Assembly: GCA_021836225.1 (NCBI GenBank)
Contig: JAKBJA010000017.1
Location: 1-9,484, forward strand
DNA: 9,484 nucleotides
Direction of reading: 5' to 3'
Source of the DNA: Pseudomonadota bacterium
GTDB lineage: Bacteria > Pseudomonadota > Gammaproteobacteria > Burkholderiales > Thiobacillaceae
Below the pieces are notes generated by a model. It saw only the letters and a program-made list of their open reading frames with translations. It did no database searches and was not told the DNA's origin. A program made the translations under genes and the position numbers. Shown in pieces: positions 1 to 9,484 of the stretch (its first letter is position 1; the number at the start of each line of letters is the position of its first letter).

Positions 1-2
1 GG

Positions 3-125
3 GGGAGGGACAGGCACAGCGCCGGCAGCGCCCCCCGGCGGCAGCCCTACAAACGGGCGAACACCGGGAACACGACCGGGCGGAAGCGCGAATATCTCAC
101 ACCGGCGCCAATATCAAATCCTTGA
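3..125 (+). CDS. C-terminal end of an upstream gene (partial)
   Basis: This is an open frame entering from the left edge, about 40 residues, ending at TGA 123-125. Up to about base 100 nearly every third codon position is G or C, far more than in the other two forward frames, which is how confirmed genes in this window behave. The visible tail is basic and rich in Gly, Pro, Arg and Thr (for example QPYKRANTGNTTGRKREYL), so it is probably a disordered C-terminus. Function cannot be told. If real, it means the left edge of the window lies inside a gene and is not a genome terminus. The assignment rests on codon-position bias over a short stretch only. Confidence 0.45.
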   Translation, partial: GRDRHSAGSAPRRQPYKRANTGNTTGRKREYLTPAPISNP

Positions 126-184
126 AACGATTTTACCCACGGAGCCCCTTCGCATAGCACAACCGGCGCGGTGCGTCAAGAGGG

Positions 185-214
185 TTGCGAAAGGGAGGGG
201 GGTGCGCGTAAGCT
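185..214 (+). promoter_or_regulatory. Possible promoter giving a leaderless mRNA
   Basis: TTGCGA (185-190) is followed after 18 bases by TAAGCT (209-214), a match to the TAnnnT -10 form common in high-GC bacteria. Transcription would be expected to start about seven bases downstream, at or next to the ATG at 222, which has no good Shine-Dalgarno sequence of its own. It is the only candidate promoter before the long unidirectional gene array. The boxes are degenerate, so this is an inference. Confidence 0.3.
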
Positions 215-221
215 GTGCCGG

Positions 222-479
222 ATGTCGAGCGCTGGTCACCTCTGGGTCTCCCCGGACCGCCGATGCCCGGACTGCCAGCGCATCCTCGCGTGGCGGACCG
301 CCCACCCGGAGATCAGCGACATCCCGCACTCGGACCGGATCCTTGTCGCGATCCAATCGGAGCAGATGCCCCGGTACAAGCGCCGGCATGTGACACACGT
401 TCCCCGCAGGGAACAGCTATGTATAGCAAATGCAGATGCAAAGGCAGGCGATGATGACAACAGTAGAGCAGACAACTAG
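222..479 (+). CDS. Small CxxC protein, function unknown
   Basis: An 85-residue protein. Third codon positions are almost all G or C from 222 to about 415, which identifies this as the coding frame over two competing forward frames. It contains one CPDC pair (residues 15-18) with scattered His residues, which could bind a metal, but there is no complete zinc-finger pattern. After about base 415 the codon bias collapses and the C-terminal 20 or so residues (IANADAKAGDDDNSRADN) look non-selected. They overlap the start of the helicase gene. I chose ATG 222 because a TAnnnT box sits seven bases upstream, suggesting a leaderless transcript. An upstream in-frame GTG at 171 has no ribosome site. The protein is not recognised and may be a regulator or an early small protein. 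Confidence 0.6.
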   Translation: MSSAGHLWVSPDRRCPDCQRILAWRTAHPEISDIPHSDRILVAIQSEQMPRYKRRHVTHVPRREQLCIANADAKAGDDDNSRADN

Positions 480-2196
480 CAGCGCGAACGCAAAGCCGCT
501 CGCGTATTACCTCGAGGGTATGCGCGACTACCAGGTCGACATGCTCCGCGCACTCTGGCGCGACATTGCAGCGGGCCATCGGGGCATCTACGCAGTACTG
601 CCGACCGGCTGTGGCAAAACCCGTGTCGGCGGCACGCTGCTCGCGATGAAGGCCGAGCTCGGACACCGCTCACTCTGGGTCGTACACACCCGCGAGCTGG
701 TGCGCCAAGCCGCCGACGCGATTGCGGCTATCGCACCCCCTAGTGTCCGCGTTGGCGTGGTCATGGCCGAGTCGGACGAGTCAGACGCCGACATCGTGGT
801 CGGATCAATACAGACTTTGCGCAATCCAGAGCGCATCGCCGCCTGTGGCATGTTCACTGGCGCTGTCGTCATCGATGAGTGTCACCATATCCGCGCAGAC
901 AATGGGTACGCGTCGCTGGCGATCTATGCGCAGGAAACGATGCACTGTCCAGTGGTCGGACTCACGGCGACTCCATTTCGGGCCGATGGCGAGGCGATTG
1001 AACGCGTGCTACCGCGCTGTTCGTTCGAGCGGTCGATCCCAGACATGATCGCGGCCGGATGGCTAGTGGACCTCCGGTACCGCGCCGTGGAGATCCCTGG
1101 CCTCGACCTCAGCGACTGCAAGCTCGTCCGCCGACTCGGCGCGCAAGATTTCGCCGACGCCGATATTGCGCAGCGTGTGGAGAACGCGGACGTCATCAGC
1201 GCGACGGTCGACGCCACCGTAGAGACGCTGCGCGACCGTCCGGGACCTGCGCTCGCATTCGGGGCGAGCGTTGCACACGCCCGTATGCTCGCCGACGCGT
1301 ACAACCGCGCAGGGATCCGAGCTGGGGCCATATGGGGCGACATGCCCCGGGACGAGCGCGACCAGATTCTCGAGGCGTGGAGGCTCGGGCCAATCAAGCT
1401 AGTGGCCAACTGCGCGGTGCTCACAGAGGGGTTCGACTACCCGGCCATCGAGACGGTAGTCATCGCGCGGCCCACGATGTCGGTCGGGCTCTACACGCAG
1501 ATGGTCGGGCGCGGTACTCGGATCGCGGATGGCAAAACGGATTGCGTGATCCTCGACATCACCGGGCGCATGCCGGCACGTGCGGTCCCGGTCCATCTGG
1601 ATGACCTGATGGGCGAGGAGCTGTCGGCAGAGGAGGACGGCGAGGTCGTGATAGACCGGAAGCGCCTCGTGTCGCCCAGGCCACAAGGTCACGCGCTGCG
1701 TGACCCGTTTGGCCGAGCGCGATTCTCCTGGACCCACCACCCAGTGCCCGCACTTACCGGCGTGTGGTACGCGCCGGTCGCGGAGCGATTCACGGCCGTG
1801 CTCATTCCCGATCCGTGGGGGCGGGGGCTGGTCATGCCGTGGCTCGTCACTAGCGACTCAGTGCAGCCGGCGGGATCGGATTGGGTTCCCCGCCGTCGCG
1901 CCATCGCGGATATTGAGGCGTCCCTTGCTCGGGCGCATGTCGCGAGCAAGTCGTTGTCGAGGAAAGACCGCGCCTGGCGTAACCTGCCTCCGACCGACGC
2001 ACAGATGTCGATGTTGCGCCGCCTGTCCTATGTGCGCGCGTACGGCCGCGAGATCTACCAGGCGGCGGCGCGCGAGGGCTGGTCGCGTGGCGACGTGTCG
2101 CTCGCCATCGACGCGTTGGTAATCGAGCCGCAGGTACGCAAGGCTTTGCGGATGAGTCAGCAGGACAACGGCGCCCAAGGAGGAGCTGAGCAGTGA
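451..2196 (+). CDS. SF2 DEAD/H-box helicase (XPB/RAD25-like)
   Basis: An ATP-dependent nucleic-acid helicase or translocase, 581 residues from ATG 451. Visible motifs in order are a Q-like RDYQ (25-28), Walker A LPTGCGKT (50-57), motif II DECHH (142-146), motif III GLTATPFR (170-177), motif V VLTEGFDYP (323-331) and motif VI QMVGRGTRI (350-358). Both RecA-like lobes are therefore intact. This arrangement is typical of phage and plasmid SF2 helicases thought to act in replication or recombination. Residues from about 400 to 581 form a C-terminal extension with no motif I recognise. ATG 430 is an in-frame alternative, but 451 has AAGGCAGG (441-448) just upstream. The start overlaps the preceding small ORF. 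The last codons hold the AAGGAGGAG ribosome site (2177-2185) for the next gene, and the stop overlaps that gene's GTG. The family call is secure; the exact role in the element is inferred. Confidence 0.93.
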   Translation: MMTTVEQTTSSANAKPLAYYLEGMRDYQVDMLRALWRDIAAGHRGIYAVLPTGCGKTRVGGTLLAMKAELGHRSLWVVHTRELVRQAADAIAAIAPPSVRVGVVMAESDESDADIVVGSIQTLRNPERIAACGMFTGAVVIDECHHIRADNGYASLAIYAQETMHCPVVGLTATPFRADGEAIERVLPRCSFERSIPDMIAAGWLVDLRYRAVEIPGLDLSDCKLVRRLGAQDFADADIAQRVENADVISATVDATVETLRDRPGPALAFGASVAHARMLADAYNRAGIRAGAIWGDMPRDERDQILEAWRLGPIKLVANCAVLTEGFDYPAIETVVIARPTMSVGLYTQMVGRGTRIADGKTDCVILDITGRMPARAVPVHLDDLMGEELSAEEDGEVVIDRKRLVSPRPQGHALRDPFGRARFSWTHHPVPALTGVWYAPVAERFTAVLIPDPWGRGLVMPWLVTSDSVQPAGSDWVPRRRAIADIEASLARAHVASKSLSRKDRAWRNLPPTDAQMSMLRRLSYVRAYGREIYQAAAREGWSRGDVSLAIDALVIEPQVRKALRMSQQDNGAQGGAEQ

Positions 2197-2489
2197 GTGA
2201 AGACGATATCTTTGCGCGAATTGCAGAGTTCAAGCAGGTGCTGGTCGATCTTGATCACATCGATGACGAGCTCAACGGTGTGCTCAATTCGGCGTTTAAT
2301 CGGGAGGTCGGGTTTTTGGGCGTCGTGCCGCGCGGAGGGCCTCCGAACACCGGCATGGTCACGCTTTACCAGGTGCTCTCGAACGTGCAAAGGAATGTCA
2401 GCTTGTGCATCAAGGCTGTATCGGATGCAGTCGCGACGCTCGAATATGACGCTGCCGCGGATGCCGGCGACGCTGCGGCGAACGGGTGA
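2193..2489 (+). CDS. Small helical protein, function unknown
   Basis: A 98-residue protein starting at GTG 2193, six to seven bases after a strong AAGGAGGAG site, with the GTGA overlap signalling translational coupling to the helicase. The N-terminal half is acidic and helical (IAEFKQVLVDLDHIDDELNG). A central Gly/Pro turn (VPRGGPPNTG) separates it from a second helix (VTLYQVLSNVQRNVSL), and the tail is Ala/Asp/Gly-rich and probably disordered. The layout suggests a helical hairpin or a small oligomerising protein, possibly a helicase or replication accessory given the coupling. I do not recognise the family and no catalytic motif is visible. Confidence 0.8.
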   Translation: MSEDDIFARIAEFKQVLVDLDHIDDELNGVLNSAFNREVGFLGVVPRGGPPNTGMVTLYQVLSNVQRNVSLCIKAVSDAVATLEYDAAADAGDAAANG

Positions 2490-2499
2490 TTCGATGCCG

Positions 2500-2808
2500 A
2501 TGAGGTACCGCATGAGGACGCCTGAGATCGAGGCCGTCCAGCTCCTCTGGAGCGCGTGGGACGACGTGTGCGCGCTGGTCGGCGAGGGCGTGCAGGGCGT
2601 CTGGTTGCACCCGACCGACGGCACGCGTTACGTCACAGATTGGAGAGATACGGGCGAGTGGACGCACGACGCACGTATTGGCTGTGTGGTCTCGACGCCT
2701 GAAGGGACGATGCTCGCGCGACAAGGCGACTGGATCATCAAAGACGGCGAGGGGCGCCTTTGGACCTATCCGGACGAGGCGTTCCGCGCGACCTACGAGC
2801 CCATCTAA
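2500..2808 (+). CDS. Small phage protein of the PGDYG-like type
   Basis: A 102-residue protein matching a pattern widespread among phage hypothetical proteins. It opens with a MRYRMRTPEIEAVQ start (family form roughly M-K-Y-R-K-K-P-V-x-I-E-A-x-Q), has a central TPEG, then GDWIIKDGEGRLWTYPDEAF (76-95) and a terminal TYEPI. The PGDYG/GDWII block is the signature. The molecular function of this family is not known to me. ATG 2500 gives the family's usual N-terminus and lies ten bases after GGGTGA; ATG 2494 would add two residues. It follows the upstream stop by ten bases. Its presence is a good marker that the locus is phage-related. The family match is from memory, not a search. Confidence 0.82.
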   Translation: MRYRMRTPEIEAVQLLWSAWDDVCALVGEGVQGVWLHPTDGTRYVTDWRDTGEWTHDARIGCVVSTPEGTMLARQGDWIIKDGEGRLWTYPDEAFRATYEPI

Positions 2809-2833
2809 ATATACACAGAAAGGAGCAAACAGC

Positions 2834-2971
2834 ATGAAGATAGGAATCGTCGCCGGCATTATCGGCGGCGTTATCGGAGGTGTGCTCGGCGGAATCGTCG
2901 GGCGCATAGTTGACTGGCTGACGCTTGATTCAGGGCCGTTCGGTCAGCGGAACGGCGGTGATGTCGCATGA
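2834..2971 (+). CDS. 45-residue glycine-zipper membrane microprotein
   Basis: The reading frame is preceded by GAAAGGAG (2818-2825) with an eight-base spacer, an excellent ribosome site. Residues 3-25 form one hydrophobic segment built on a regular small-residue pattern (AGIIGGVIGGVLGGIVG), a glycine zipper. In membrane peptides that pattern typically drives helix packing or oligomerisation. The rest is a short polar tail. The stop overlaps the next ATG (ATGA at 2968). Such peptides can be pore formers, holin-like proteins, minor virion membrane components or toxins. Nothing here distinguishes these, and its place among replication genes favours an accessory role. Confidence 0.72.
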   Translation: MKIGIVAGIIGGVIGGVLGGIVGRIVDWLTLDSGPFGQRNGGDVA

Positions 2972-3303
2972 TCAAGGAGTGGGCGTTCGGCCTCGATGAC
3001 GTGCCGAAGCGCGAGCTGTATATGCGGCTGCTTGACTCGGCCAACGCGTGGTGCAACGCAGAACTGCCGCGCCTCGTGCAGGTGGCGGATCCCACGCAGG
3101 CCGTCGAGGGCGCCAAATTGGCGGACCGGCTGATGTATCAGCTCCGTCAGGGAGTGGCGGCCGTGCTCGTCATGGTCGGCTCGCTCGGTGGCGATGCGGA
3201 TACGACGTTTGACATCCGCCTGTGGGGTACCGCGAGCTCTGACGGAACCGCCGCAGAGCTGCGCGTCCACGCGTTTCTGACGGACAAGGAGGATGCGGAC
3301 TAG
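2968..3303 (+). CDS. Hypothetical protein, 111 residues
   Basis: It starts at ATG 2968 in an ATGA overlap with the microprotein, so it is probably translated by coupling; only a weak GGTGAT lies upstream. The N-terminal two thirds look helical (KRELYMRLLDSANAWCNAEL, LADRLMYQLRQGVAAVLVMV). The end looks like beta strands with an acidic tail (FDIRLWGTAS, AELRVHAFLTDKEDAD). No motif or family is recognised. The conserved-looking frame, GC-rich third positions and tight packing make the gene credible although its function is unknown. Confidence 0.78.
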   Translation: MIKEWAFGLDDVPKRELYMRLLDSANAWCNAELPRLVQVADPTQAVEGAKLADRLMYQLRQGVAAVLVMVGSLGGDADTTFDIRLWGTASSDGTAAELRVHAFLTDKEDAD

Positions 3304-3380
3304 TGGCATCACTACGACGGAATCGAGAGCACAGCGAAGCTGAAGACATAGGCGTAAACATAGAGGAGGACCGACCAGCA

Positions 3381-3911
3381 ATGGCAGAGACATCGGACAG
3401 GCCCGTCAACCGCGTCGACATCGCAGAGATGAAGGATACGAACCAGCCAGCAACCTCGGTCGTGACGAACCCGGACGCGGCAATGATGACGGCGCAACCC
3501 CGCCACCTGCAGCTCTGGTTCGTAGAGCGCTATCCGTCGTCGATTGAGGACCCGCTCAGCGTGCAGCGTCGGATCGTCGAGAACATTTTGGCGACGGATG
3601 CCGACTCGGTGCTCGACGTGAAAGAGTCGCTGGACTCCGCAGGCTCCCTCGTGCGTCGGCCAATCCGCATCGAGGAGGTCGAGAGTGTGCTGCCGTCAAC
3701 GTATGGCGGTATCTACCTGCAGGTGCGGATCACGACGCTGGACGACGGCGAGGTGCGCCTGGTGAATTTTGGCTCGCCGACGATCCTCGCGCAGCTCAAG
3801 ACGCTCATCGACGCTGGCAAACTGCCCATCGAGTGCAAGGTGGTGCCCGTGGCACGCGGTGGCAGAGACGGGCGAAACCCGCCGTTGTATCTGCGCCGCA
3901 TCAGCTACTAG
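3381..3911 (+). CDS. Possible ssDNA-binding-like replication protein
   Basis: A 176-residue protein. ATG 3381 is chosen because GAGGAGGA (3363-3370) sits ten bases upstream. Extending to GTG 3303 would add 26 codons with poor GC-third-position bias, although that GTG also has a GGAGG site. Residues 1-40 are polar and probably disordered. The C-terminal part (about 110-176) looks like alternating beta strands: DGEVRLVNFGS, then PTILAQLKTLIDAGKLP, then a GRDGRNPPLYL end. A segment of the form GS-x-L-x-x-L-x-LP followed by a basic, aromatic tail recalls small phage and plasmid proteins annotated as single-strand DNA-binding. That resemblance is from memory and weak. Position between helicase and polymerase fits a replication role. 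Confidence 0.8.
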   Translation: MAETSDRPVNRVDIAEMKDTNQPATSVVTNPDAAMMTAQPRHLQLWFVERYPSSIEDPLSVQRRIVENILATDADSVLDVKESLDSAGSLVRRPIRIEEVESVLPSTYGGIYLQVRITTLDDGEVRLVNFGSPTILAQLKTLIDAGKLPIECKVVPVARGGRDGRNPPLYLRRISY

Positions 3912-3927
3912 CTGACGCCGCACGCGG

Positions 3928-4548
3928 ATGCCCGCCGCGAAGCCACCACCTGGAGACTGGTTTGACGATCCGATCACGGACGTCTTTCCGCTCCAGCCTA
4001 TGCGTGTATACGTGCAAGTAGCTTTCGACACGATACGGCTTGGCATGGCGACGCGGGCATCCGCGCTGCGGCAGCAGCGCGAGGAGGCGTGGGCCAACTA
4101 CCGCGCATCGATCAAGGGACTTCCAGCGCAAGACGCTCGTCGCGTGAATCGGTCCACGTGGCTGAGCGTTTGGGTGCACATGGTCGAGAGCATCGACCAG
4201 ACTTGGCCGAAGATCCGGGACAAGAGCGAGACTGCCCGTCCGCGTCGGGATTGGGCATACGAGAGCGCAAAGCCCATGCACGCGGAAGGCGCCCACTGGA
4301 ACTGGCATGTGACGCTGATCGTTCAAGGCGACTATGACGTGAGCGCGAACGTCTCACACGTGACCTACGACACGATTGACTTCCGCGAGCTTAACTGGCT
4401 GACACTTGATGGTCGCCGAGTGCGTGCGACCATGCAGAACGCGTATTTAAAGGCGGTCGAGCACATGGGGGAGCCGGACTCGCGCGCATTCGGGTCGCGG
4501 ATACGTTATTTCGCGGCGAATGCGACATCCCTGGTACATCACGAATAA
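3928..4548 (+). CDS. Hypothetical protein, 206 residues
   Basis: ATG 3928 lies 16 bases after the previous stop with no clear ribosome site, so re-initiation is likely. The N-terminus is Pro-rich (PAAKPPPGDWFDDP). A long helical, Arg/Gln-rich middle follows (ASALRQQREEAWANYRASIK), then an aromatic-rich region with several Trp residues (STWLSVWVHMVESIDQTW, GAHWNWHVTLIVQGDYDV), and a mixed C-terminus. No catalytic motif or known domain is seen. As the largest unknown gene near the polymerase, it is one candidate for an element-specific replication protein, such as a terminal protein if replication is protein-primed. That idea is speculative. Confidence 0.78.
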   Translation: MPAAKPPPGDWFDDPITDVFPLQPMRVYVQVAFDTIRLGMATRASALRQQREEAWANYRASIKGLPAQDARRVNRSTWLSVWVHMVESIDQTWPKIRDKSETARPRRDWAYESAKPMHAEGAHWNWHVTLIVQGDYDVSANVSHVTYDTIDFRELNWLTLDGRRVRATMQNAYLKAVEHMGEPDSRAFGSRIRYFAANATSLVHHE

Positions 4549-4550
4549 TC

Positions 4551-4557
4551 GAAAGGA
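4551..4557 (+). promoter_or_regulatory. Ribosome binding site deciding a GTG start
   Basis: GAAAGGA directly abuts ATG 4557, too close to serve it, but lies five bases before the in-frame GTG at 4563. This favours GTG 4563 as the true start. The same heptamer recurs before 2834 and 4964. Confidence 0.5.
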
Positions 4558-4562
4558 TGGAC

Positions 4563-4928
4563 GTGAGCGTCTACGACGAGGACTGGGCGCTCGACCTCGG
4601 GGACGGGCACTACCTCTGGTGGTCCATCTGGGCGCCCGACCCGGAACTCAACCCCTGGGCGGCGGACCTTCCCGGTCCCGAGGACGAACCGATCGGGGCG
4701 CTCATCCGCCACCCGAAGGGGCCCCATCCCTCGGGCGCCTACGCGCAGTATTCGTGGTGCGTTGGGGGCGTGTCCTTCGACACGCCACGCGGCCGTGCCT
4801 TCGCCGATCGGCACCCCCGCCCGATGTGGCACGTGGAGTCCCTTGCGCCCCTCACGATCTCGCCGTCGGTGCTCTGTAGCTGCGGCGATCATGGCTTCAT
4901 CCGGGACGGCAGGTGGCTCCGAGCGTGA
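4563..4928 (+). CDS. Small Cys/His protein with CSCGDHGF C-terminus
   Basis: A 121-residue protein from GTG 4563 (ATG 4557 would add two residues but leaves no spacer to the ribosome site). It is rich in Trp, Pro and Asp. The C-terminus SPSVLCSCGDHGFIRDGRW (100-118) closely matches a motif I know from phage and actinobacterial hypothetical proteins, similar to the DUF6527 type. There a CxCGxHG group could bind zinc. The N-terminal part includes LWWSIWAPDPELNPW and IRHPKGPHPSG, consistent with a compact beta fold. The function of this family is unknown to me. The domain name is a recollection, not a search result. Confidence 0.8.
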   Translation: MSVYDEDWALDLGDGHYLWWSIWAPDPELNPWAADLPGPEDEPIGALIRHPKGPHPSGAYAQYSWCVGGVSFDTPRGRAFADRHPRPMWHVESLAPLTISPSVLCSCGDHGFIRDGRWLRA

Positions 4929-4963
4929 AAATATGGATGGAATAGAAAGGACGGACATGCGAT

Positions 4964-5764
4964 ATGGTTTCTGGCGCGCTCTTTCAGTATCCGGGCAGCA
5001 AGGGACACCTCGCGTCCCGGATCGTGTCGCTGCTTCCCGCGCACAGGACATACGTCGAGCCCTTCGCCGGTACGCTCGGCGTTTTGCTCGCGAAATCTCC
5101 CTCTGCTTGCGAGGTCGTTAACGACATTGACCGGAAGCTGGTGACCTTCTACCGGGTCCTGCGTGACAACCCCGACGAGCTGGTCCGGCGGTGCGAGCTG
5201 ACGCCATATGCGGAGGTGGAGCTGGACGCAACGATGTCACTGGACGAACCGGACGACGAGATCGAGGTCGCGCGCCGCTTTTGGCTTAGCCGTGACATGT
5301 CGATCAACGGCAAGGGGCGCACGTTCAACTTCACCAACATGACAACTGCACGAGCGCATATTGCCCGCATGAAAGAGGTCGCAAACCGTTTGGCGGATGC
5401 CGTGATACTTTGCCGCGACTACTATGACGTGTTCGAGCAGTTCGACGCCGAGGATACGCTGTTCTACTGCGACCCTCCATACCTCGGGTCTACTCGCACC
5501 TCCGGCATGTATGAGCACGAACTGCGTGGACTCGACGAACACCAGCAGTTCGCCGACGTGGTGAACTCGGCGCGCGGGATGGTGCTCGTAAGCGGCTATC
5601 CGTCGGCCGAATACGACGAGCTGTTTCCCGGTGACCGCTGGCGGTACATCGACTTCGAGGTCACATCGACGGTATCTGTCGCGGGAAACGGACGAGGCAA
5701 AGCCGCCACCGAGCGCCTGTGGGCGAACTTCCCGCTCGCAGAACAGCAGCGCATGTTCGCATGA
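4964..5764 (+). CDS. D12-class (Dam-like) adenine-N6 DNA methyltransferase
   Basis: Transfers a methyl group from S-adenosylmethionine to N6 of adenine in DNA; D12-class enzymes often recognise GATC. At 266 residues it has the usual family length. Visible motifs are QYPGSKGHL (8-16), the AdoMet-binding VEPFAGTLGVLL (31-42), the acidic VNDID strand (52-56) and catalytic DPPY (170-173). A C-terminal target-recognition part and a final ERLWANFPL element typical of the family follow. All key residues are intact, so it should be active. No restriction endonuclease is nearby, so it is an orphan enzyme, probably protecting or marking the element's DNA. The best-placed ribosome site, GAAAGGA (4945-4951), is 12 bases before ATG 4964 and nearer to an out-of-frame ATG at 4957. 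Its stop overlaps the polymerase ATG (ATGA at 5761). Confidence 0.94.
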   Translation: MVSGALFQYPGSKGHLASRIVSLLPAHRTYVEPFAGTLGVLLAKSPSACEVVNDIDRKLVTFYRVLRDNPDELVRRCELTPYAEVELDATMSLDEPDDEIEVARRFWLSRDMSINGKGRTFNFTNMTTARAHIARMKEVANRLADAVILCRDYYDVFEQFDAEDTLFYCDPPYLGSTRTSGMYEHELRGLDEHQQFADVVNSARGMVLVSGYPSAEYDELFPGDRWRYIDFEVTSTVSVAGNGRGKAATERLWANFPLAEQQRMFA

Positions 5765-7683
5765 CGCCGGACGAGCGGCGCGCGCACTATATCAGGCCGC
5801 TGGTACGCGACCTGTTCCCGAGGCGGTATGTGATCCTCGACACGGAGACGCGTTACGAAACCGAGGGCCCCGGTCTGGACGTTCACCGCTTCCGCATCGC
5901 GTCGGCAGAATTTGTCCGTTGGCGTGACGCCGGCAGCGACACCGACACGACCCTTCGCCATTTCGCGTCGCCAGATGATCTTTGGCACGCCGTGGACAAG
6001 TTCTTGATCAAGTCGCAGCCAGTGTCACTGTGGTGCCACAACCTCGGCTTCGACCTTCAGATCAGCCGTGCGTTGATCGTCCTGCCACGGATGGGCTATG
6101 AGTTTGCGGCGATCCGGCTGGGTGAGGATATTTCATGGGCGAAAGCGGTGCGCTTGCGAGACGGCGCCACGCTGACGTTCTGTGACACGTTCTCCTTCTG
6201 GCCGACGACCCTTGATGCTATTGGCAAGATGATGGGCATCCGGAAGGCGCCGCTGCCGCCCAACGACGACGACGATATCGACGCGTGGTACAAGCGGTGC
6301 GACCGCGACGTGATGATCACCCGGCGCGCCGTGCTCAATATGCATACGTGGCTTCGAGAGAATCATCTCGGACCGTGGCGCATGACGGGACCCGCACAAG
6401 CATGGGCCATATGGCGTCGGCGGTTCCTTTCGCATCGCGTGCTCGTACACGACGATCCCGCCGGGCTCGAGGCCGAGCGTATCGCCGCATACGCGGGCCG
6501 CGCGGAGGCATTCCGTCACGGCGTCGTCAATGAGGCCGTGGACGAGTGGGATTACAGGCACGCGTATGCATCGATCTGCGCGATGGCGAACCTGCCGAGC
6601 TACCGCATGACCGAGTTCATCCGTGTCGGTGACGCCGTCCGTGATGCCTACGAATTCATCGAGCGGGGCGAGTCGCCTTACCTTCTCGGCTGCAGCCTCG
6701 ACAGCGTTGGCCTTGTCGAGGCGACGGTACGCGTGGCGCTCGATTCTGATGCGGGTCGTGGAGCTAGCGACGTTCCGGTGCTGCCGCATCGTATTCCCGA
6801 AACCGGCGACATCGGCAGCAGGATCGTCTGGCCTCTCGGACGCTTCCGGGGGTACTGGTGGCTCCCGGAGCTGCTGGCCGCTCGGCAGGCCGGACAGCTA
6901 TCCGAGTGCGAGATCCACGCCGTGAGCCTCTATCGGTGCGAGCCGATCCTGCGAGCGTGGGCGGAATGGGCTATTTCTGTCATCGATGATCAGTCTGGAT
7001 CGCCGTTGATCTCCGGCCTGGTCAAACATATGGCGCGCACCTTAATAGGACGCTTCGGGATGCGGTACGTCGACTACGCGGCAGCGCATCTAGCTCCGAC
7101 CGAGCGCGTGATGGGTGGCAAATGGGTTGACGGGGATTCCGCATCGGGATCGGCTGCGCACCGCATGATGCAAATCGGTCAGCAGGTTTACGTCGCCACC
7201 GATGCGCACGAAGGCGAAGACAGCGCCCCGCAGGTCATGAGCTATGTCATGGCACTGACGCGCCTTCGTCTCCTGGGCGCCATAGATGCGGCCGGAGGCG
7301 CAGGTCCGGTGGTATACTGCGACACGGACGGCCTCTTTACGACCGCCGAGGGTAGTCGCAGGCTACGTGCATATTCCGACGTGAGTTCCGGGCTTTTGCG
7401 ACGAAAGGCGACCTGGAGGCACATGACCATCCTTGGGCCGAAGCAGCTCCTTCTGGAGGATCGCCCGAGGGTCGCGGGCCTTCCGTCCCGGCCCGTCCGG
7501 CACAACGCCGACGGGTCATGGACCGTCGAGCGCTGGGAACGGGCGCGTGCCGCGCTCGAGGCAGGCACGCCCGATCAGGTACGCGTTCGTACGGTCGTCA
7601 TGCACGTGCCCGGCAAGGATGGTCGGCGGTTACGCGGAGACGGGGGCACGACCCTCCCGATTTCCATAGGGGAAGCGCCATGA
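5761..7683 (+). CDS. Family B DNA polymerase with 3'-5' exonuclease
   Basis: A 640-residue replicative polymerase, closer in size to phage and plasmid PolB than to cellular ones. Exonuclease motifs are ExoI LDTET (26-30, D27/E29), ExoII HNLGFD (93-98) and ExoIII YKRCDRDV (177-184; D181 or D183). Polymerase motifs are motif A DYRHAYAS (264-271, consensus DxxSLYPS), a pre-B block WPLGRFRGYWW with EL (370-371), motif B from K422 to GRFG (430-433) and motif C YCDTDG (519-524, consensus YxDTDS). GPKQLLLED (559-567) matches the KxY region but lacks the Tyr. Start ATG 5761 overlaps the methyltransferase stop; an upstream GTG at 5719 would run into that gene. Whether it uses a protein primer is unresolved. 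No long insertion between pre-B and motif B is evident, but the 85 residues between B and C could hold one. Confidence 0.93.
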   Translation: MTPDERRAHYIRPLVRDLFPRRYVILDTETRYETEGPGLDVHRFRIASAEFVRWRDAGSDTDTTLRHFASPDDLWHAVDKFLIKSQPVSLWCHNLGFDLQISRALIVLPRMGYEFAAIRLGEDISWAKAVRLRDGATLTFCDTFSFWPTTLDAIGKMMGIRKAPLPPNDDDDIDAWYKRCDRDVMITRRAVLNMHTWLRENHLGPWRMTGPAQAWAIWRRRFLSHRVLVHDDPAGLEAERIAAYAGRAEAFRHGVVNEAVDEWDYRHAYASICAMANLPSYRMTEFIRVGDAVRDAYEFIERGESPYLLGCSLDSVGLVEATVRVALDSDAGRGASDVPVLPHRIPETGDIGSRIVWPLGRFRGYWWLPELLAARQAGQLSECEIHAVSLYRCEPILRAWAEWAISVIDDQSGSPLISGLVKHMARTLIGRFGMRYVDYAAAHLAPTERVMGGKWVDGDSASGSAAHRMMQIGQQVYVATDAHEGEDSAPQVMSYVMALTRLRLLGAIDAAGGAGPVVYCDTDGLFTTAEGSRRLRAYSDVSSGLLRRKATWRHMTILGPKQLLLEDRPRVAGLPSRPVRHNADGSWTVERWERARAALEAGTPDQVRVRTVVMHVPGKDGRRLRGDGGTTLPISIGEAP

Positions 7684-8102
7684 ATCTGGACCTCGAGCTA
7701 AGTCCCGCGCAGGTCGGCATCGGCCTCGCCGCAGTCGGCGTCGTATTCGAGGTTTTCTCGTCGCTCACCTCGTCGCCGTGGACGATGGAGAATTTCGGGG
7801 CGGATGAGCAGCGCGCGAAGAGCGCTCGATACTACGTTGCAGCCGCCGCGGTGATCTCCGGCGGTATCGGGCTCGGTTACGCGTGGCTAGCGGGATCATG
7901 GTGGCCGCTGATCGGCGTTGTCGTCGCATCGGGCGGATTCGTCGTGATCTACCTGCTGGCGCTGGCTCGCGGAAAAGCCGCCGGCAATATGGGATGGGCG
8001 GCGCAGAACTCGCCCGGATTTTCAGACACCGCGGCATCCGCCGCCGCAGCGGTGCTATCGGAGTCTGGGCGCAACTTGCAGGCCCCGCTGCGAGTGCTGT
8101 AG
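7680..8102 (+). CDS. Three-helix membrane protein, unknown function
   Basis: A 140-residue protein whose ATG overlaps the polymerase stop (ATGA), with AGGGGAAG (7668-7675) a few bases upstream. Predicted membrane segments lie at about 10-30, 51-71 and 75-96. Helices 2 and 3 form a hairpin around AGSWWPLIG. Between helices 1 and 2 is a polar loop with SSPWTMENFGADEQ, which looks constrained and may be functional. The last 40 residues are soluble and Ala/Ser-rich. There is no signal peptidase site or enzymatic motif. As the first gene after the replication block and upstream of other membrane and ATPase genes, it could be a virion or envelope membrane protein, or a lysis or export component. 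The family is not recognised. Confidence 0.82.
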   Translation: MNLDLELSPAQVGIGLAAVGVVFEVFSSLTSSPWTMENFGADEQRAKSARYYVAAAAVISGGIGLGYAWLAGSWWPLIGVVVASGGFVVIYLLALARGKAAGNMGWAAQNSPGFSDTAASAAAAVLSESGRNLQAPLRVL

Positions 8103-8120
8103 GGGAGGAGGGGATAGGGC

Positions 8121-8639
8121 ATGTCCGACGAATCTGAATCGGCTTCGGCCGCTGAAGCTGCCGAAGCAGCAGCCGAAGCGGCCGAAGCAGCGGCCGAAGC
8201 AGCGGAAGCAGCAGCCGAGGCTGCTGCATCTTCTAGCAGCTCGGAGTCAGAGCCAGAACGCGATGCCCACGAGCTGTGGCGCCTGGAGCACGAGAATCGC
8301 CATCAGGAAATGCTTGTACGCGTGGCGCAGGTTGATGAGCGATTCGCAAACATCGAGTCCAGATTGTCCGCCATAGAAGCCCGCGCCGGAGAGGCCGCCG
8401 CAGAAGCAGGCGCGTCGGCGAGCATCGCGGAGGTCGCCGCTGCGATGGCGGCCGAAGCCATCGAGACAGCCAGTGACGCCGCGGAGACTGCGGAAGCCGC
8501 CGCAACTACTGCTACTGCCTCGGAGGATGGCACCGAGGAGATCGTCGGCAACGTCGAGGTTCCCGACGTAACGCCGCAAGAGATACGTGACGCTGAAGAC
8601 AACGCTCGCCGTGGGTCGTGGTGGAGGAGGATGCTGTGA
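8121..8639 (+). CDS. Ala/Glu-rich coiled-coil protein
   Basis: A 172-residue protein preceded by a very purine-rich ribosome site (8102-8113). Residues 10-36 are nearly pure Ala and Glu with a seven-residue period (AEAAEAA), forming a long acidic helix. A Ser/Glu linker follows, then a classical coiled-coil stretch (about 50-90: ELWRLEHENRHQEMLVRVAQ, then DERFANIESRLSAIEARAGE), and a second Ala-rich acidic helix (about 90-135). The end is basic and aromatic, GSWWRRML, and could touch a membrane or a partner. The composition suggests an extended oligomeric structural protein such as a spike, scaffold or tether. No family is recognised, and low complexity makes homology searches unreliable. Confidence 0.8.
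   Translation: MSDESESASAAEAAEAAAEAAEAAAEAAEAAAEAAASSSSSESEPERDAHELWRLEHENRHQEMLVRVAQVDERFANIESRLSAIEARAGEAAAEAGASASIAEVAAAMAAEAIETASDAAETAEAAATTATASEDGTEEIVGNVEVPDVTPQEIRDAEDNARRGSWWRRML
8148..8228 (+). repeat. In-frame 21-base tandem repeat encoding AEAAEAA
   Basis: About three and a half imperfect units of a 21-base period encode residues 10-36 of the coiled-coil protein. Synonymous codons vary between units (gca, gcg, gcc, gct; gaa, gag), so the amino-acid pattern is conserved better than the DNA. That suggests selection on the helix more than recent slippage. Confidence 0.75.
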
Positions 8640-8673
8640 CATACGCTGAGCGCATGACGAATCGGAGACCATC

Positions 8674-9423
8674 GTGACGGTCATGGAAATGGAAACTGCA
8701 CAGCGCGAGGACCCGGTGTTCGTGCGTACCGTGCCAGAAGTCGACGCCGGCCACCAAAGAGAACGAGAGTCTGACAGCGAGCAGACTTACGTCTGCGAAA
8801 TTTGTCAGGACTTCTTTCCCTCCCAACGCGGGCTGAACATCCATATGGGTCACAAGCACCCCGAACAGGCCGAGGGCTCAAAGCGTCCACGCTCTCGTCG
8901 TGCCGCGTCTGCGCCTGCGTCCGCCAGCGATGTGGAAGGCTCCGTCAATCGATCATCGCGTCCGGATCGCCCAGATTTCGCGTCACTCGGGTCCAAGCCT
9001 TCACGCAGCGCCAAGCCAGTGCAGCAGTTCATCCTGCATGAGGTCAATGACGGCATCATCACAGGCCTTGGTCTGCTCGGAGTGCCTGAGCAGATCGCCC
9101 GTGCGAAGATCCTCGAAAATGGCACGAAGAGCGTCGCCGACGTTGTGCAGTTTTCCACTCGCGAGGCGACGATCATCGCCGAGGGCGCCGTTCGCATGAA
9201 GGCCACGCCGGTTGCCGAAACTGTTGGCCGCATTGCGGGGCCAGCGGTTCCATACGTGTTTGGATTCTTTGCGCTGCTCGTCATCGCCAGTCACGTGCTG
9301 CGCCTTATTGCACTGCGACGCCACCTTGCTCAGCTCGTCCAGCAGGTGCAACCCCAAGCATCATCGGGTGCGGAGACGAATGGCGCGAGCGGATCTACTG
9401 CCCATAAGCCTGTCTTTGTCTGA
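8674..9423 (+). CDS. C2H2 zinc-finger protein with a C-terminal membrane segment
   Basis: A 249-residue protein from GTG 8674, five bases after CGGAGA (8664-8669); ATGs at 8683 and 8689 are alternatives. An acidic N-terminus precedes one textbook C2H2 finger: C41-x2-C44-x12-H57-x4-H62, within YVCEICQDFFPSQRGLNIH. A basic, Ser/Ala-rich linker follows (KRPRSRRAASAPASAS), then an amphipathic region (about 115-185), one predicted membrane helix (about 193-215, PYVFGFFALLVIASHVLRLI) and a short Gln-rich tail. The finger and basic linker suggest DNA or protein binding, and the anchor ties it to a membrane. In a virus with an internal membrane this could connect genome and membrane; it might instead be a host-membrane regulator. 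The ATPase start lies inside its last codons. Family not recognised. Confidence 0.85.
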   Translation: MTVMEMETAQREDPVFVRTVPEVDAGHQRERESDSEQTYVCEICQDFFPSQRGLNIHMGHKHPEQAEGSKRPRSRRAASAPASASDVEGSVNRSSRPDRPDFASLGSKPSRSAKPVQQFILHEVNDGIITGLGLLGVPEQIARAKILENGTKSVADVVQFSTREATIIAEGAVRMKATPVAETVGRIAGPAVPYVFGFFALLVIASHVLRLIALRRHLAQLVQQVQPQASSGAETNGASGSTAHKPVFV

Positions 9424-9484
9424 CAGGATCGCGCTCGTCGGTAAGACGAGAAGCGGAAAGAGCGTCGCGACGCTGATAATCGTC
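9380..9484 (+). CDS. P-loop ATPase, N-terminus only (possibly packaging-type)
   Basis: The first 35 residues are visible before the window ends. ATG 9380 follows GGAG (9372-9375) by four bases and overlaps the zinc-finger gene by 44 bases in another frame; GTG 9368 is an in-frame alternative. The sequence runs straight into DRIALVGKTRSGKS, a strand plus Walker A P-loop, with no N-terminal domain. A Walker A this close to the N-terminus, in the form GKTxSGKS, is common in FtsK/HerA-type genome-packaging ATPases of tailless viruses and in related conjugation ATPases. Walker B and the arginine finger are outside the window, so the subtype is inferred. Confidence 0.7.
   Translation, partial: MARADLLPISLSLSDRIALVGKTRSGKSVATLIIV

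Follow-up and report, generated by a model that had tools for sequence, protein, structure and literature searches.

A linear genome of about 21 kb, probably from a tailless bacterial virus related to the Tectiviridae

Genes of the window

We analysed a 9,484-nucleotide stretch of DNA (contig JAKBJA010000017.1 of assembly GCA_021836225.1; hereafter the window), which carries 14 co-oriented genes and the start of a packaging ATPase gene, together covering 96% of its length (Table 1). Genes overlap by 1-4 bases at five joints, with 4 bases shared between the methyltransferase and polymerase genes and 4 bases between the polymerase gene and that of the three-segment membrane protein. We are confident that the window covers the left portion of a linear double-stranded DNA genome of about 21 kb that is nearly complete, belonging to a tailless, very probably membrane-containing bacterial virus that is related to yet distinct from the sampled Tectiviridae. 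The computed support comprises the inverted repeats found at the two ends of the contig, a major capsid protein (MCP) predicted to have the PRD1-type fold, a packaging ATPase of the P9 family and a family B DNA polymerase (PolB) homologous to those of tectiviruses.

Table 1. Features of the window and of the adjoining contig (lengths in amino acids, aa)
Position	Strand	Feature	Basis or remark
1..189	.	Left terminal region	140-189, arm of the inverted terminal repeat; 1-138, outside the arm
171..479	+	Small cysteine-containing protein, 102 aa	Open frame; weak relative in L015 (45% over 42 aa)
430..2196	+	Superfamily 2 (SF2) DNA helicase, 588 aa	Pfam ResIII (E 1e-23)/Helicase_C; phrog_16 (E 1.4e-79)
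2193..2489	+	98-aa protein	Without family match
2494..2808	+	104-aa protein	Phage family phrog_419 (function not known), E 4e-16
2834..2971	+	45-aa Gly-rich protein	Hydrophobic segment
2968..3303	+	111-aa protein	Without family match
3303..3911	+	202-aa protein	Without family match; weak relative in L006 (E 0.002)
3928..4548	+	206-aa protein	Without family match
4557..4928	+	123-aa protein	Weak DUF6527 (E 2.5e-4, under curated cut-off); phrog_15183 (E 2.6e-5)
4964..5764	+	D12-class adenine-N6 DNA methyltransferase, 266 aa	Pfam E 5.5e-28; phrog_56; solved Dam/DpnII relatives
5761..7683	+	Family B DNA polymerase, tectivirus/phi29 type, 640 aa	DNA_pol_B_2, phrog_1907, motifs
7680..8102	+	Membrane protein, three hydrophobic segments, 140 aa	Related proteins in L003 and L015
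8121..8639	+	Acidic Ala/Glu-repeat, coiled-coil-like protein, 172 aa	Coiled coil judged by eye
8674..9423	+	C2H2-motif protein, one hydrophobic segment, 249 aa	Gene immediately before packaging ATPase gene; Pfam zinc finger weak (E 0.02)
9380..9484, on to 10105	+	Start of P9-type packaging ATPase, 241 aa whole	phrog_2666
10113-10214		Tiny protein with hydrophobic segments, 33 aa	Between ATPase and MCP genes
10218-10382		Tiny protein with hydrophobic segments, 54 aa	Between ATPase and MCP genes
10395-11654		Double jelly-roll MCP, 419 aa	Outside window, after two tiny membrane proteins; predicted fold

The initial annotation had described compact genes running in one direction and had named a family B polymerase, an orphan methyltransferase, an SF2 helicase, a three-segment membrane protein, a coiled-coil protein, a membrane-anchored zinc-finger protein and a P-loop ATPase, and these readings held up. 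No restriction enzyme was found among the window proteins scanned.

Capsid protein, packaging ATPase, polymerase and genome ends

The window corresponds to the reverse strand of contig C6 in a binned assembly (G000; 5.43 Mb, 30 contigs): reverse-complemented, the contig opens with 9,346 bases that match window positions 139-9484 with zero mismatches. The contig has a size of 21,001 bp, which gives 21.1 kb with the 138 bp of extra window sequence; positions beyond 9484 are in extended window coordinates (21140 minus the contig coordinate). Both follow-ups proposed with the initial annotation, extension to the right and a check of the ends, were carried out: the contig continues and holds a double jelly-roll capsid gene, and its ends form inverted repeats.

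The MCP had no match in Pfam and only noise in PHROGs (E 0.34). Modelling was performed on P0001, a database protein identical to the element's own MCP at 413 of 419 positions, and the model built from 29 homologs reached a predicted local distance difference test (pLDDT) score of 83.5 and a predicted template-modelling (pTM) score of 0.86. In Foldseek and VIA-align, P3 of PR772/PRD1 ranked top by a wide margin, and in the viral structure library BFVD the MCPs of GC1 and Wip1 were the top matches (E 4e-20). A sequence search of the PDB with the MCP profile returned five matches, all chance-like. The model thus predicts a capsid protein of the PRD1-type double jelly-roll fold.

The ATPase matched phrog_2666 (E 1.5e-12), a family that PHROGs calls 'terminase large subunit'. 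Because the packaging ATPases of PRD1, GC1, phiKo and Forthebois, used as controls, all had this family as their best match (1e-64 to 2e-29), the label is a misnomer and the family includes tectivirus ATPases; the same label can hide tailless viruses in automatic annotation. A single hhalign comparison gave 98.2%, and by its sequence the protein is a packaging ATPase of the P9 type; the seven matches of a PDB sequence search with the ATPase were all chance-like.

For the polymerase, the DNA_pol_B_2 match (E 7.7e-4, 18.9 bits) lay under the curated cut-off of 25.8, and phrog_1907, the family that the polymerases of PRD1 and GC1 match best, was hit at E 3.4e-8. The motifs DTE, HNxxxD (HNLGFD), DxxxAY (DYRHAY) and DTD were present, with acidic residues that are invariant or nearly so in 40 homologs. 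The polymerase profile found the phi29 polymerase (E 0.01) as its only PDB match up to E 1, and a single hhalign comparison with four tectivirus polymerases gave a probability of 98.7% over 455 columns. Judged by its sequence, this family B polymerase is homologous to those of tectiviruses.

The inverted repeat pairs window positions 140-189 with contig bases 2-51, identical at 45 of 50 positions (90%); its local score was 75, and 200 simple shuffles of the left end scored 34 at most. It starts one base in from both contig ends, a position that would fit an assembly break where the outer parts of both repeats are identical, and the G-rich start of the window is presumably the genome terminus. 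A diverged inverted repeat (74%) was also seen in locus L015, where one arm (7246-7295) overlaps the gene of a small cysteine protein (7219-7386) like that at window positions 171-479 and the other arm lies at 8240-8289. No transfer RNA gene was found in L001, L003 or L015, and no Rfam family in the window or L001. The proteins scanned included no recognisable integrase, which makes insertion into a chromosome less likely than a free linear state, whether lytic or plasmid-like.

Several results weigh against assigning the genome to a virus of this kind. An earlier model of the MCP, built on 14 sequences, had a poor pLDDT of 50.6, and the alignment was then deepened to 29. Comparison of the MCP profile with four tectivirus MCPs was weak (65.9%) and covered part of the protein only, so that homology of the MCP rests on its predicted fold. 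The two hhalign values for ATPase and polymerase were obtained without an unrelated P-loop or polymerase control. Neither a terminal protein nor a spike, a penton or a PRD1 DNA-delivery protein was identified by family scans. Window positions 1-138 have no counterpart in the assembly examined, and the true genome ends are thus unproven; the observed repeat is 50 bp, compared with about 100 bp in Tectiviridae, and 138 further bases at one end are unpartnered. By position only, the 202-aa and 206-aa proteins are candidates for the terminal protein.

These points have to be set against two other explanations of the element. Linear polymerase-bearing plasmids exist and no virion has been observed here, as would suit a capsid-less linear plasmid or a decayed element with a borrowed protein-primed polymerase; we consider this very improbable, as the capsid, ATPase, lysozyme-like and membrane-protein genes are open, and MCP and PolB probably occur together on four other contigs. 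The predicted MCP fold largely refutes a capsid-less element, and the 'derived element' that the initial annotation had offered as its alternative falls with the finding of a capsid gene in the right half. A tailed-phage fragment of the terminase/portal lineage with odd gene content would be in keeping with the PHROGs name of the ATPase family, but that family is the one of tectivirus packaging ATPases; this explanation, refuted by the MCP fold and by the phrog_2666 controls, is so improbable that it can practically be dismissed. Among the proteins scanned, none of the genes named in advance as contrary (large terminase, portal, tail and conjugation genes) was recognised. The initial proposal of a tailless membrane virus from a double jelly-roll lineage is supported by the PRD1-like MCP, the P9-type ATPase, the small hydrophobic-segment proteins, the lysozyme-like domain and the weakly endolysin-like gene of the right half.

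Several small proteins with hydrophobic segments are encoded in the right half of this putative viral genome, none of which matches a delivery family. The same half encodes a lysozyme-like protein with an SLT_3 domain (E 1.5e-7) and a C-terminal hydrophobic segment, a 232-aa protein whose role is not known, a 92-aa protein that is holin-like by size, place and one hydrophobic segment only, and an endolysin-like protein with a weak match to phrog_291 (E 0.0016). Two more membrane proteins are encoded there, and two right-half proteins may, as a guess, be spikes. The final ~2 kb carry small open reading frames (ORFs) on the opposite strand, and those scanned had no match to known function above noise.

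The two tiny proteins between the ATPase and MCP genes had no family match above noise. PRD1 has gpi and P20 at the corresponding site and GC1 has gp10/gp11, a likeness of place and size only. Finger proteins of weak or absent sequence similarity were found at window positions 8674-9423, in L070 (1041-2030), in L003 (741-1739) and in L040 (2118-2972), each with a C2H2-type motif and one or more hydrophobic segments; their genes adjoin the packaging ATPase gene, or lie one gene away in L040. Because this place is shared in four viral loci, a role of the finger protein in packaging or assembly is suggested. In L003 and L070, genes for a coiled-coil-like protein, a finger protein and the ATPase all lie close to the MCP gene, in the order and direction of the window in L070 and with the first two on the opposite strand in L003. 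The element's own finger and coiled-coil proteins had no blastp match (E 0.01) to the relatives' counterparts; the likeness rests on motif, hydrophobic segment and place, and that of the coiled coils was judged by eye, with no blast match.

Each functional step that follows is modelled on tectiviruses. The polymerase would copy the genome from a protein primer at each end, assisted by the SF2 helicase, and the methyltransferase may mark the DNA, perhaps against host restriction. Capsid trimers would assemble round a membrane bearing many small membrane proteins, and the ATPase would pump the DNA into the particle by way of a vertex that includes the two adjoining tiny membrane proteins. Entry might involve the membrane-anchored, peptidoglycan-cutting lysozyme-like protein together with spike-like proteins, and exit the endolysin-like protein with its holin-like partner.

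Relatives, rank and host

MCP homologs numbered 14, including the element's own, in a first protein search and 27 in the alignment search; one of them, P0063, comes from a Dermatophilaceae metagenome-assembled genome (MAG). For four MCP/PolB pairs, the longest contigs are equal in size (P0002/P0016, 21,925; P0005/P0017, 20,886; P0004/P0020, 19,697; P0012/P0022, 22,588), and each pair therefore probably represents one contig, giving genomes of about 20-22 kb. Loci L003 and L004 come from 'Actinomycetes bacterium' MAGs and L070 is a 3.7-kb piece from genome G587; between the element and L003, the ATPases are 39% and the MCPs about 30% identical. The MCP profile hit a single genome, the element's own, both among 398 genomes from the phylum of the bin and among 17 from its family, and it hit 2 of 395 genomes of the class of G413 (G413 and G587).

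Among known viruses, tblastn with the MCP gave no match at E<=1 in 50,697 phage records (INPHARED). Scans of IMG/VR, which depend on short peptide patterns, returned 0 loci for the MCP (two scans), 0 for the ATPase and 1 for PolB (L006). PolB had one match in the phage collection (OM716002, 21.8%, E 5e-16) and none among 72,556 plasmid records. The ATPase tree has 9 rows, 5 of them tectiviruses, and the PolB tree has 25, made up of 20 of the 40 homologs, L006 and 4 tectiviruses. In each, branches with 100/100 support separate our group from the tectiviruses sampled, and the hallmark genes did not branch among named Tectiviridae genera; both trees are unrooted, with long branches flagged and Bam35 and Toil absent.

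The element shares with PRD1 (Alphatectivirus, AY848689) a single direction of polymerase and structural genes, and differs from it in genome size (14.9 kb for PRD1), in MCP identity (12%), and in having the methyltransferase gene directly before the polymerase gene, where PRD1 has the terminal protein gene; PRD1 has no annotated helicase or methyltransferase. Forthebois (MK620900) and DesireeRose (OL455892) carry the hallmark genes and the order ATPase/small protein/MCP/membrane or small proteins, but are 18.3 and 15.5 kb in size with the polymerase arm reversed, lie across the 100/100 branches and show no MCP sequence match. The Gluconobacter phage GC1 (Gammatectivirus, NC_042083), the best BFVD structural match together with Wip1, likewise has two tiny genes between ATPase and MCP, whereas it is 16.5 kb in size, has its polymerase arm reversed and gave no blastp match to the element in a small ORF set. 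The nearest annotated ATPase is that of Thermus phage phiKo (MH673671; 27%, E 0.06 in the database search and 2e-6 in the small set), which is 11.1 kb long and has no annotated polymerase. The likeness of Archaeal virus sp. OM716002, a 6-kb record annotated as protein-primed, covers PolB only. Sulfolobus turreted icosahedral virus (Turriviridae) is a circular record, and its MCP is clearly further off than that of PRD1.

These comparisons support a new lineage of a known virus kind at the genus-to-family level and not higher. The suggestion of the initial annotation that the lineage may be new thus stands at that level, given the unmatched MCP and the 100/100 branches, and not above it. A 2018 survey of such genomes (PMC5894146) lists Odin, PM2, STIV, Bam35-Toil, PRD1 and FLiP groups; PMC11768872 and PMC6950372 were also consulted. 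No published account of the group was found in literature titles and abstract openings, full texts not being combed.

As for the host, no 16S match was found in the bin. For the bin's homospermidine synthase, the ten best plasmid rows were all from alphaproteobacterial genera (47-48% identity), with Pseudomonas in 17 of 45 records, and an HlyB-type type I secretion protein is encoded; the bin's large contigs are probably a Gram-negative, alphaproteobacterial chromosome. Tetranucleotide correlations of C6 were 0.46-0.68 with 14 pieces of these large contigs and 0.45-0.63 with six pieces of two actinomycete bins (seven short bin contigs read as N and gave no value), and composition does not decide the host. 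The relatives point to actinomycete hosts, through bins only. Searches of clustered regularly interspaced short palindromic repeats (CRISPR) gave five short matches in relatives, with no repeat array in the three of these five loci that were checked, one of which (L027) has four two-copy repeats, and no clear spacer match was found.

Another contig of the bin, C13 (locus L040, 3,526 bp), carries genes for an ATPase (767-1504, - strand), a phage methyltransferase (1486-1953, -), a finger protein (2118-2972, -) and WhiB (525-695, +). As its ATPase is similar to that of DesireeRose (27%, E 4e-12) and to phrog_2666 (E 3.5e-8), this contig is a fragment of a second tectivirus-like phage. With at least this other viral contig swept into the bin, the host label of the bin is untrustworthy for C6. 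WhiB belongs to a regulator family typical of actinobacteria and was rejected as a host clue for the bin: it was detected in 1 of 14 control genomes (Corynebacterium) and in 0 of 16 family relatives of the bin, and the contig is only 3.5 kb, which suggests foreign origin. A phage endolysin gene on contig C4 (L032, 5,350 bp; 2179-2970; phrog_13480, E 1e-29) is a further sign of viral contigs binned together.

On balance, we lean towards an unnamed family-level lineage of linear, protein-primed, PRD1-like bacterial viruses of ~20-22 kb, absent from the annotated phage records searched and nearly absent from IMG/VR, with a packaging neighbourhood of its own, in which the sites directly before the ATPase, occupied in PRD1 by P6 and P10, are those of an Ala/Glu coiled-coil protein and a membrane protein with a C2H2 finger. 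An ordinary new genus inside Tectiviridae is quite possible, if somewhat short of an even chance: the three hallmark genes, their order around ATPase and MCP, and the linear form with inverted ends are the same. Named genera are also mutually invisible at the MCP sequence level, PRD1 P3 matching 77 records (75 PRD1-like at >=95% and 2 Gluconobacter) and the Forthebois MCP 14 records, all actinophages; because these genera are equally far apart, MCP distance alone does not make a family. Against a mere genus stand the tree positions, a genome of 21.1 kb compared with 11.1-18.3 kb in reference tectivirus records (about 15 kb for Tectiviridae), and the co-directional polymerase and structural genes, an arrangement reversed in Forthebois, DesireeRose and GC1, although PRD1 shares it. 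The host also has two explanations, and that C6 is a true phage of the bin's alphaproteobacterium, not a mis-binned virus of another host, seems to us rather doubtful. Its place in the bin, its correlation with the large contigs and the alphaproteobacterial host of GC1 favour it, but composition separates C6 no better from the actinomycete pieces, 20 of the 30 bin contigs are short (2.5-5.6 kb) and include the WhiB-bearing C13, the relatives lie in two Actinomycetes bins and one Dermatophilaceae bin, and spacers gave no clear match.

A lineage in which a recognisable PRD1 module goes together with additional replication genes, a packaging neighbourhood of its own and a genome of greater size is of value for studying how the virus group evolved that connects phages and archaeal viruses with adenovirus-like and giant viruses. 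Pipelines designed for tailed phages readily overlook tailless viruses with double jelly-roll capsids: the IMG/VR pattern scans returned no locus for the MCP described here, and INPHARED no match; the MCP, PolB and ATPase profiles made here can be used for finding members. Sister polymerases (P0025, P0028, P0029, P0032 and that of L006, IMGVR_UViG_3300009094_000504) lie on contigs of about 14.1-14.5 kb, and blastp found no MCP relative among the L006 ORFs. Such a constant contig size suggests that these polymerases, related to the one described here, belong to a further group of smaller viruses.

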